From positions 1 to 64,000 of IMG/VR virus record IMGVR_UViG_3300042308_000865: DNA of 64,000 nt. One strand, 5' to 3'. Of the stretch, positions 32,091-50,372 are shown piece by piece. A model generated the notes under the pieces. That model ran no database searches. It was given only the letters and a program-made list of their open reading frames with translations, and was not told the origin of the DNA. Origin of the DNA: a virus. The first letter of the stretch is position 1. The number at the start of each line of letters is the position of its first letter. The translations under genes were made by a program, and so were the position numbers.

Positions 32091-32131
32091 TATAAACAAT
32101 AACAAATAAAATAAAATAACTGCTATAACGA

Positions 32132-32177
32132 ATAAACAACTGACAACGAATAAGTATTAGTTATTCGTGTTGTTTAT
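32132..32177. repeat. Inverted repeat 1, 17 bp with bulge
   Basis: ATAAACAAC (32132) pairs with GTTGTTTAT (32169), and ACGAATAA (32146) with TTATTCGT (32161). This gives a 17-bp hairpin with a 5-nt bulge and a 7-nt loop. Confidence 0.8.
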
Positions 32178-32298
32178 ACTAACTGCCACCAAATCACTGT
32201 GTTATTAGAATAAAACAACGAAGTTCTTATTACTTAAGCACGAAAAAACTCTACTTATTTAATAAGAACTGACTATTCTTTATACTAACTGCCGCCAA
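32173..32298 (+). repeat. Direct repeat pair of 20 bp
   Basis: Copies at 32173-32192 and 32279-32298 (106 bp apart) read TTTATACTAACTGCC, then A or G, then CCAA. They differ at one base. Each follows or forms part of a hairpin arm. Confidence 0.75.
32222..32270. repeat. Inverted repeat 2, 11 bp
   Basis: AGTTCTTATTA at 32222-32232 and TAATAAGAACT at 32260-32270, a perfect pair with a 27-nt spacer. Confidence 0.8.
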
Positions 32299-32329
32299 TT
32301 AACGACGAATAATAATAAGTATAAAGAAT
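32275..32329. repeat. Inverted repeat 3, 12 bp
   Basis: ATTCTTTATACT at 32275-32286 and AGTATAAAGAAT at 32318-32329, a perfect pair with a 31-nt spacer that contains the second 20-bp direct repeat. Confidence 0.8.
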
Positions 32330-32775
32330 TAAGTTGCCATTAAAGATAAAAACAATCAGACAAAGTAATAATAATAAACGAAACATCTATCAGGCGATGT
32401 TTCTTACTCCACGAAAGTATAATACAACAGAGGAATGTTGGATTGTATTCTTAATTACCAGGGCACGGAGAGATCTTCTACATAACTCTTCACTGATTCT
32501 TTACTGTCTAACCCGAATAGTTTCTTCCAGTTAATCTGATGAGGATTAAAATCTTCATTCACGTTTAATTCCAGAGTGATACGATACTTATTCCTTTGTG
32601 CTTTAAGGTAAGAAGTTGCCATAAGTTAAAGAACCGAAAGAACGAATAAACTCTACTGGTTAATTCTACCAGACCTTTCAGTGCCCGTCAAGTATTTGCC
32701 CCACAACGAACTTGAGATATAAACGAATATTTTCTTCTTATGATTTCTTTGAGATTCTGATAAGATCGAATCTCT

Positions 32776-33018
32776 ATACGAATCTTATCTAATCACGAAT
32801 GACTTTGTGATTATAATCTCACAGTTGTGTTGTATTATCAATTTTCTATACGAATCTTATCTAATCACGAATGAACTTATGAGTTCTTTATTGCCAGTCT
32901 TAAGTATTATGATTTTTCTATACGAATCTTATCTAATCACGAATGACTTTGTGATTCATTCTTATCATTAGTGCTTGTGTCTTTTATAATGATACGAATC
33001 TTATCTAATCACGAATGA
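32776..33018 (+). repeat. Four-unit array with exact 72-bp period
   Basis: A 27-bp core starting ATACGAATCTTATCTAATCA occurs at 32776, 32848, 32920 and 32992, identical in all four copies and exactly 72 bp apart. The 45 bp between cores differ in sequence but not in length. The first three copies are preceded by TCT (usually TTTCT). In copies 1 and 3 the core runs into CTTTGTGATT, forming an AATCAC/GTGATT hairpin. Equal spacing with variable filler suggests helically phased protein-binding sites (iterons) rather than a simple tandem duplication. Confidence 0.85.
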
Positions 33019-33554
33019 CTTTTGTTTGTTCTGATTGTTATATTCTATCAGGTCTTATTATAATTGTCAACCAGTGCCTTATAGAAACACTCCCTTCGGT
33101 CGTGTTGTCCTTCGGACGGGTCTTTAAGTTCTTGATGTTATTATTTCTCTTTAACAGCAACAAACATACTCTAGCGACATTATGAGTACTTGTCAACTAG
33201 AAGATTATGTGATAGAATAAAAGAGTTCTGATAAAACCTTGATAATTAAATAATTTTTGATAGTATAAAACCTTCCTGACATCTTTAGAAATTCGCATAA
33301 GAATCTAAAGCAGGAATTATGTGCTTTTATTGGGTTTCGGTGAGTATTCAGTTTTGATAATCTCTTTCAGTATTTGTTTTCTCCATCAATGGTTTTATTT
33401 CATTGACTTTGGAGAGAGGGTTTTTATAAAGACCCTATGAGAACTTTGATTCTATAAATTATCAAATGTTTTATTAACTTTTCGCTTCTGTAGAATTTGA
33501 CTTTTGACCCCGTAGGAAAGTTCAAATTCGCACTATGAATTGAATTGTTATGTT

Positions 33555-33562
33555 TATTTATA
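33555..33562 (-). promoter_or_regulatory. Orphan late promoter (TATAAATA)
   Basis: Perfect late -10 on the minus strand, but the nearest downstream gene is 1.57 kb away. It may be fortuitous in AT-rich DNA or may drive a non-coding leader. Confidence 0.3.
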
Positions 33563-33708: not shown

Positions 33709-33767
33709 TGTGCCGATTTTTGGAGTGTCCTGGGGGTATTGACAAAACAGCGCTGATGTGTTATAAT
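33709..33767 (+). promoter_or_regulatory. Early promoter module P (plus strand)
   Basis: A perfect sigma70 promoter: TTGACA at 33739-33744, 17 bp, TATAAT at 33762-33767. A degenerate copy of the 24-bp block (33709-33732, TGTGCC near one end and GTGTCC near the other) lies 29 bp before the -10. This is the same spacing as in the fifteen minus-strand modules, here in reversed orientation. The first gene downstream is the HNH endonuclease. Confidence 0.85.
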
Positions 33768-33793
33768 GCAGGCCAAGACCGCGACAAGAACTC

Positions 33794-33917
33794 ACATTCT
33801 TTAAGGTTTCTTAAGGTATTAACTACATTCTTTAAGGTTTCTTAAGGTATTAACTACATTCTTTAAGGTATTAATCATAAGAACTCACATTCTTTAAGGT
33901 ATTAACAATATAACACT
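33794..33917 (+). repeat. Four-unit 31-bp tandem array in HNH leader
   Basis: Units start at 33794, 33825, 33856 and 33887, each with ACATTCTTTAAGGT. Units 1 and 2 are identical; units 3 and 4 diverge in their second half but keep the 31-bp period. The array lies in the transcribed leader of promoter P. Confidence 0.85.
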
Positions 33918-36813: not shown

Positions 36814-36871
36814 AATATAGCACCTTTTGAGCACCGTGCTCTTTTAGTGTGCCAGCGCTACAGGTGGCACA
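36814..36871 (-). promoter_or_regulatory. Early promoter module A
   Basis: Block at 36848-36871 (TGTGCCA and TGGCACA arms), 28 bp, then -10 TATATT at 36814-36819 read on the minus strand. No clear -35. Heads the operon 36751 to 34543. The leader begins AAGAGGGTGGAGGG. Confidence 0.7.
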
Positions 36872-36895
36872 TGGTATCAGAGACTCACCTTGAGA

Positions 36896-38293: not shown

Positions 38294-38351
38294 ATCTACC
38301 AGAAAAAAGTTCCAGTGCCCGTTTAGTGTGCCACTGCTACAACTGGCACAT
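38294..38351 (-). promoter_or_regulatory. Early promoter module B
   Basis: Block at 38328-38351 (TGTGCCA/TGGCACA), 28 bp, -10 TAGATT at 38294-38299. Sequence between block and leader is almost identical to module C. Heads the operon from 38230 to 36896. Confidence 0.7.
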
Positions 38352-38364
38352 CGCATCATTGGAC

Positions 38365-38694
38365 TCACACAGTCTGATGCGACAGTGCAAACTTCACAAT
38401 CTCTGTGCGATTGTTCTTATATTGCAAAATCAAATCTACAATCGCATCAACATCTTCAGGTTCAGGTTCAGGAACACACTCATCTTTTGAAAGTGCATTA
38501 AAAATACTCACAATCTCAAAGTCTGATTCAAACAGCAGATTTCGGTGATTATCAATCTCCATATAATCTTCCACTGCATCAACAGACAGTTGCAATGGAA
38601 TATCAGGTCCAATCATACCCAAAGTTGCAAGACGTTCGAGGGCACCAACAACCCACATCACTTTGCATTCATCAATCGAAAGTTGTGCGTTCAT
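38365..38694 (-). CDS. Hypothetical acidic protein (109 aa)
   Basis: Start chosen at 38694 (MNAQLSIDECKVMWVVGALE), because a longer frame would run into the preceding gene. Residues 75-90 hold an acidic EPEPEDVDA segment. Mostly helical; function unknown. Second gene of operon C. Confidence 0.65.
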   Translation of the reverse strand: MNAQLSIDECKVMWVVGALERLATLGMIGPDIPLQLSVDAVEDYMEIDNHRNLLFESDFEIVSIFNALSKDECVPEPEPEDVDAIVDLILQYKNNRTEIVKFALSHQTV

Positions 38695-39458: not shown

Positions 39459-39516
39459 AATCTACCAGAAAAAAGTTCCAGTGCCCGTTTAGTGTGCCAC
39501 CCCTACAAGTGGCACA
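39459..39516 (-). promoter_or_regulatory. Early promoter module C
   Basis: Block at 39493-39516 (TGTGCCAC/GTGGCACA, perfect 8-bp arms), 28 bp, -10 TAGATT at 39459-39464. The block ends 3 bp before the stop codon of the upstream gene (39520). Confidence 0.75.
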
Positions 39517-39519
39517 TCA

Positions 39520-43981: not shown

Positions 43982-44039
43982 ACAATACCACATTTAGGGA
44001 TCTGTGCTCTTTTAGTGTGCCACTAGAACAAGTGGCACA
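43982..44039 (-). promoter_or_regulatory. Early promoter module F
   Basis: Block at 44016-44039 (TGTGCCAC/GTGGCACA, perfect), 28 bp, -10 TATTGT at 43982-43987. Drives the membrane-protein, endonuclease and methyltransferase operon. Confidence 0.75.
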
Positions 44040-44056
44040 TCGCATCATTGGACTCA

Positions 44057-44458
44057 TCAGAATTGAGATTCAATCAAGTTAGAAAGTTCATCGAAAGTAT
44101 AACCCGAATCGTTCAGATTGGCAATCTCATCAGTATAGAACCAATCATCTTCATCATCATTGTCGGTTACATCCACTCGGACACTAGGATTACCAACAGG
44201 AAGTCCTGCCCATTCTTTTACAGATTCAGGCAGAAACTCACCCTCTCCGTCAAAATACCAATAATCAGTTGGTTGAGTATTTTCTTCCTTAAATGCACCT
44301 CGAAACTCCCAACCTACCAGTTTTGTTTCTTGTGTATACAAATCACAGAGAACACCAAGGCAACAATAACCAGTTACACTGCGGAGTTTCTCACTGCCTT
44401 GATCATACCAACCAGAACGCAGAGCATCAATCCACTTTTTCTTAACTTCGGGATTCAT
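44057..44458 (-). CDS. Conserved phage protein (133 aa)
   Basis: Start at 44458 (MNPEVKKKWIDALRSGWYDQ), one base after the upstream stop. It continues GSEKLRSVTGYCCLGVLCDL, a motif seen in many phage and some bacterial hypothetical proteins. Near residue 60 it has QPTDYWYFDGEGEFLPESV. Acidic C-terminus. The family has no known function. Last gene of operon G. Confidence 0.75.
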   Translation of the reverse strand: MNPEVKKKWIDALRSGWYDQGSEKLRSVTGYCCLGVLCDLYTQETKLVGWEFRGAFKEENTQPTDYWYFDGEGEFLPESVKEWAGLPVGNPSVRVDVTDNDDEDDWFYTDEIANLNDSGYTFDELSNLIESQF

Positions 44459-45653: not shown

Positions 45654-45712
45654 ATGATAGCACCCCAGAGGGGTCTGTGCTCTTTTAGTGTGCCACCCCT
45701 ACAAGTGGCACA
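45654..45712 (-). promoter_or_regulatory. Early promoter module G
   Basis: Block at 45689-45712 (TGTGCCAC/GTGGCACA, perfect), 29 bp, -10 TATCAT at 45654-45659. Same right-hand sequence (AAAAGAGCACAGA) as module F. Confidence 0.75.
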
Positions 45713-45726
45713 CAGACACATTGGAC

Positions 45727-45891
45727 TCAACTGAGATTGTTAATGTACTTTCTGAGAAGATGTGTTCCCCTTTCTGGTTCAAATTTATTCTCAAAGAGTT
45801 CCATTAGTTCTAATACAAGGTTAGCATAAATTACTGGAACTCGAATGTGTTTAGTTTCACCTGATTTAGGAAACTTTTTAGTGAAGGGCAT
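45727..45891 (-). CDS. Small basic protein (54 aa), possible DNA-binding
   Basis: Starts MPFTKKFPKSGETKHIRVPV. The TKHIRVPVIYANLVLELMEL pattern resembles a ribbon-helix-helix start (basic beta strand then helix), as in small phage repressors, but this is a pattern guess. Last gene of operon H. Confidence 0.6.
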   Translation of the reverse strand: MPFTKKFPKSGETKHIRVPVIYANLVLELMELFENKFEPERGTHLLRKYINNLS

Positions 45892-50285: not shown

Positions 50286-50372
50286 ATAAGAGACCCTCCT
50301 GTTTGTGCATTATTAAGAGGCATAGAGGGTGTGGGACTTACTTAAAGTTTGGACCTTTAATGCCCGTAGAAA

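Follow-up and report, generated by a model that had tools for sequence, protein, structure and literature searches.

An iteron-like array of conserved sites in a putatively replicative locus of T4-like cyanophages

Plasmid iterons are usually ~20 bp long, lie about two helical turns apart and adjoin a Rep gene. Among phages, the T4 origin oriE makes use of an early promoter and contains repeats at even intervals, whose role is unproven (PMC3016281). The primer RNA of oriE is complementary to the gene 5 transcript, and the origin lies upstream of gene 6 with segC nearby. The consensus DnaA box of cyanobacteria has been given as TTTTCCACA (PMC4674748), and viruses are known to carry mini-CRISPR arrays (PMC6858448). 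The literature searched, coverage of which was partial, contained no report of a replication origin mapped in a T4-like cyanophage.

The array described here lies in a window of 64,000 nucleotides, part of a 69,361-bp IMG/VR virus record in which the genes, gp25 and gp6 among them, find their matches in T4-like cyanophages (Kyanoviridae: Bellamy, S-SM2). T4 oriE lies in a comparable place, with repeats near baseplate gene 6, an antisense primer RNA made from an early-type promoter and a homing endonuclease gene close by; the present locus is similar in position and in having a putative antisense promoter and a probable homing gene. The 24-bp repeats of T4 lie inside gene 5, unlike the present sites, which are noncoding, ~30 bp long and recur every ~70 bp; no sequence relation between the two sets of repeats was found, and their contexts are unrelated. 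The repeats visible at T4 oriE (L091, T4 79000-83500, 403-570) coincide with the 24-bp coding repeats of gene 5, an overlap that may confound their reading as iterons. Like plasmid iteron origins, the locus contains several direct repeats of one conserved, protein-binding-like motif and, close by, an AT-rich melting region, though its spacing is ~70 bp and it has no recognised initiator. Some relatives resemble cyanobacterial oriC in carrying TTTTCCACA boxes by an AT-rich segment; unlike oriC, the window and most loci have no such boxes, no dnaN is found nearby, and the core is not a DnaA box.

Conserved cores and diverged fillers

The initial annotation had described four identical 27-bp cores 72 bp apart with unlike fillers of equal length, and both coordinates and sequence bear this out. 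The core, ATACGAATCTTATCTAATCACGAATGA, occurs four times with a period of exactly 72 bp (Table 1), and the fillers are 45 bp each and unlike in sequence, apart from the first 10 bases common to fillers 1 and 3. Pairs of identical 27-mers would arise by chance in the window ~1e-6 times, and no further copy of the inner 23 bp of the core was found in the window at ≤3 mismatches (0 in 100 shuffles). The hexamer ACGAAT is present twice per core and, as had been noted, recurs in the surrounding region, with 14 of its 32 copies in the window falling within 32128-33016; a total of 32 does not amount to over-representation across the window, for which 25.5 (sd 4.5) would be expected.

Comparison of 47 units with fillers <70% identical yields a shared motif of ~30 bp, TACGAAwCTTATCTAATCACGAATGAAyTTT. 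By the evidence of relatives, the conserved unit thus somewhat exceeds the 27-bp core and carries GAAyTTT at its end. Two ACGAA half-sites in each core are essentially invariant and exactly 17 bp apart in these units. Filler positions, on the other hand, hold 0-0.35 bits, the exception being an A-rich position 7 bp ahead of the next core, and no second motif was detected in the fillers from their information content. Between the window and a relative (L003), the cores show no differences in 81 positions, while the fillers show 32 in 135. When fillers 1 and 2 are aligned between the window and a second relative (L004), insertions are offset by deletions that keep the 72 bp, and these few cases of balanced change hint at a constraint on length. 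Because the cores are conserved while the fillers diverge and hold no other motif, the pattern of conservation makes it probable that the cores are protein-binding sites. A promoter in each unit was considered on account of TTGACA-17-TATGAT in some fillers (L044, L030, L057) and set aside, since filler positions are almost free of information.

Units arise by tandem duplication, as in one locus (L064) where the fillers of two adjacent units are identical. Sharing of core variants among the units of an array reaches 0.738 as against 0.595 in shuffled arrays, a value inflated by the kinship of the arrays. Both observations would be expected of a neutral satellite whose cores are alike merely as recent copies. 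Such an origin of the likeness is nevertheless very improbable, as the cores of an array are identical in spite of its unlike fillers, and are kept between distant relatives whose fillers have become unrecognisable.

Short identical repeats of ~27-30 bp separated by unlike fillers of fixed length also fit the bare description of a virus-borne mini-CRISPR array. The nth filler of one array, however, is homologous to the nth filler in relatives; fillers are inherited in line, and not acquired from foreign DNA and different between close relatives as CRISPR spacers are. In L064 the filler was copied along with its unit. No filler match beyond chance was found in phage records, the window or two related records, and a scan of nine neighbouring proteins revealed no Cas gene, so that a CRISPR identity is scarcely credible.

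Distribution and spacing among related phages

The exact core was found in 20 viral-contig stretches. A looser pattern of two units matched 62, but 11 of these pattern-scan loci were unrelated repeats and were excluded. A different two-copy 74-bp repeat (ATTCTAATAACGAACCATACCGGGAGTGGGCAT), unrelated to the array, was caught by the pattern in L043, L046, L054 and L067. About 40 distinct arrays, mostly of 3-5 recognised units, are thus recorded from uncultured T4-like cyanophages (Kyanoviridae), although the contigs and loci that bear them are relatives and the counts are not independent events. A pattern near the core consensus gave no matches in ~85,000 bacterial and archaeal genomes. The pattern for the TATTAATC core variant, as written, gave no match, yet L117 and L120 carry this variant by inspection. 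A search of other phages for the core had been proposed in the initial annotation; blastn against phage records returned no relative of the array.

Spacing depends on lineage, with counts of 19 at 69 bp, 13 at 70, 12 at 71, 51 at 72 and 8 at 73, and a mean difference of 0.8 bp between spacings of the same array. The suggestion that a 72-bp period would place bound proteins on the same helical face is weakened by this variation, as spacings of 69-73 bp leave 0.57-0.95 of a turn (at 10.5 bp per turn), and helical phasing of the cores was dropped for the same reason. The period is nonetheless stable in close relatives, where instability would have spoken against the proposal; all of them retain 72 bp, two fillers apparently through compensating indels.

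Orientation and place are constant in all arrays with enough flanking sequence, ~150-370 bp upstream of a gene encoding 55 amino acids, and the array is found at a single place in each of nine large records. Cultured relatives keep parts of the layout at the same locus, where the array itself is absent. At the equivalent locus of Synechococcus phage S-SRM01 (L073, ~2240-2410), a palindrome, CTCGACGAG, occurs five times in place of the ACGAA array. In a tree of the neighbouring 255-aa protein, array-bearing and array-less loci are intermixed, partly since some loci end before the array, and no array clade was recovered from this tree. From the sequences compared, the array is a lineage-specific, noncoding and iteron-like element.

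Neighbouring genes, promoters and origin-like features

The 55-aa gene stands at the head of a leftward baseplate operon (gp25-gp6-gp7), with the array just upstream of it (Table 1). Leftward from the array, on the minus strand, follow the 55-aa gene, small genes, a 255-aa glycosyltransferase-like gene and the baseplate genes; rightward, a noncoding stretch precedes an HNH endonuclease ORF that is probably an inserted homing gene. A family search of the neighbours recognised no initiator or DNA-binding gene beside the array, and a structure model of the 55-aa product gave no recognisable fold.

Table 1. Features of the array locus, with coordinates in the window.
Feature	Coordinates	Strand	Remark
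55-aa gene, phrog_12516, first of leftward baseplate operon	32455..32622	-	fixed neighbour of every array
Sigma-70-like promoter of 55-aa gene, TTGACG-17-TAGAAT	32663..32691	-	same position in nearly all relatives
Core 1	32776..32802	+	identical 27-mer
Core 2	32848..32874	+	identical 27-mer
Core 3	32920..32946	+	identical 27-mer
Core 4	32992..33018	+	identical 27-mer
Promoter-like TTGACA-17-TAGAAT, reads leftward into array	33042..33070	-	sequence pattern; some relatives only (e.g. L059)
T4-type late promoter motif TATAAATA, right of array	33555..33562	-	in most array-bearing loci
Rightward antisense promoter TTGACA-17-TATAAT	33739..33767	+	conserved
Four 31-bp repeats just downstream of antisense promoter	33786..33902	+	in tandem
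AT-rich segment	33899..33998	.	duplex stability in lowest 0.03% of window
HNH endonuclease ORF, 176 aa	34023..34553	+	neighbour outside array

The array is flanked by a conserved early-type promoter on one side and a T4-type late promoter on the other, and a long operon follows downstream. This placement is what would be expected of an operator or enhancer, whose cores would bind a regulator of three promoters, the early one of the 55-aa gene, the leftward one at 33042-33070 and the late one, with no replication role. Multi-site operators would also give the same pattern of conservation. On the other side, the early promoter is found at the same place in array-less phages and so does not need the array, and the DnaA boxes and AT-rich segment are left unexplained, though they are possibly unrelated to the array. 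An operator for the adjacent operon is a real possibility and the main rival of a role at an origin.

The late promoter motif on the right would also transcribe the array, which might then act at the RNA level as a set of repeated sites in the leader of a leftward late RNA. Folding of whole units is slightly better than that of shuffled ones (mean z ~-0.6), but equally so on both strands, and the whole-array z values are -0.6 and -1.0. A hairpin after each core, which seemed to covary by eye, failed the shuffle test (z -0.22 and -0.16, SE 0.14), and no Rfam match was found in the array, leaving an RNA element improbable.

To the right of the array, a sigma-70-like promoter in antisense direction (TTGACA-17-TAnnnT) is found in array-bearing and array-less relatives alike, cultured phages among the latter, and in most cases a start motif resembling GGCCAAGATCACAAG comes after it. 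It lies ~130 bp from the start of the 55-aa gene in loci without the array and ~600-1300 bp from it in those with the array. Promoter and start motif together were found by a strict pattern in 23 of 50 loci, and several more have the promoter without the start motif. Many relatives have other tandem repeats at the place of the window's 31-bp repeats, with periods of 10-35 bp and often CATTTATAAG. The antisense promoter and the varied tandem repeats (33739-33902 in the window) suggest a fast-evolving noncoding RNA.

The AT-rich melting segment of the window lies ~0.9 kb from the array. The intergenic stability minimum is at 0.04-0.05% in G001 and is less marked, at 0.08-0.27%, in G002, and each genome examined has several other segments as unstable as this minimum. 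Upstream of the gene, 76 kb of sequence contain 29 copies of TTTTCCACA, versus 3 in the remaining 190 kb of these loci; its reversed form, used as a control, gives 5 and 3, respectively. Of the 28 boxes present in whole records, 12 are located at this region, where 0.43 would be expected. They are often paired 21 bp apart and close to the AT-rich segment, and were detected in 13 of the 55 related loci surveyed; the window's record has none. The cluster of TTTTCCACA boxes that would mark a DnaA-dependent origin is thus absent from the window.

Two further elements were noticed elsewhere in the window. A dispersed, stem-like repeat (GTGTGCCAC..GTGGCACA) occurs five times (36828-36893, 38307-38372, 39473-39518, 43996-44061 and 45669-45734), and an abiF RNA was matched in Rfam at 50293-50329, immediately next to a tRNA-Arg gene, with a score of 42 bits that exceeds the gathering threshold.

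A candidate origin in T4-like cyanophages

The reading we prefer, to which we assign a probability of roughly 0.45, is that the array consists of protein-binding sites acting at the DNA level in an origin-like region, where they would help to open or regulate that origin. Each ~30-bp core, with its two ACGAA half-sites, would be occupied by a DNA-binding protein of the phage or its host; with three to five such sites filled at intervals of ~70 bp, a nucleoprotein complex could form. A transcript from the antisense early-type promoter could prime synthesis, as at T4 oriE, and the AT-rich segment, beside which host-type DnaA boxes are paired in some relatives, would be easily melted. The array might thereby help to open or regulate the origin, possibly along with the adjacent operon. 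The sequences themselves show the conservation, the position, the motif, fillers free of other motifs and, in a subset of relatives, clustered DnaA boxes; from these we infer origin activity and protein binding by a phage or host protein. Counting against an origin are the lack of a GC-skew change at the array (two large records), the absence of TTTTCCACA from the window and from most loci, the array-less cultured relatives and the lack of a recognised initiator. The earlier proposal of an iteron-like array and candidate origin holds up in part, on the strength of core conservation, empty fillers and the origin-like context in relatives; its helical-face argument finds no support.

A broader scheme, which we regard as tentative and somewhat unlikely, is that T4-like cyanophages share a conserved origin in the intergenic region ahead of the 55-aa gene, with host DnaA recruited there in some lineages. 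In one phage group this origin would have gained an iteron-like array specific to the phage, to which an initiator of its own would bind. More generally, the locus appears to be a conserved, regulatory and putatively replicative one in T4-like cyanophages. With a conserved candidate so precisely located, the question of the origin can be put to the test in S-SM2 and other cultured relatives. The repeats here, unlike those of oriE, lie outside coding sequence, and the role of repeats at T4-type origins is thus approachable at this locus.
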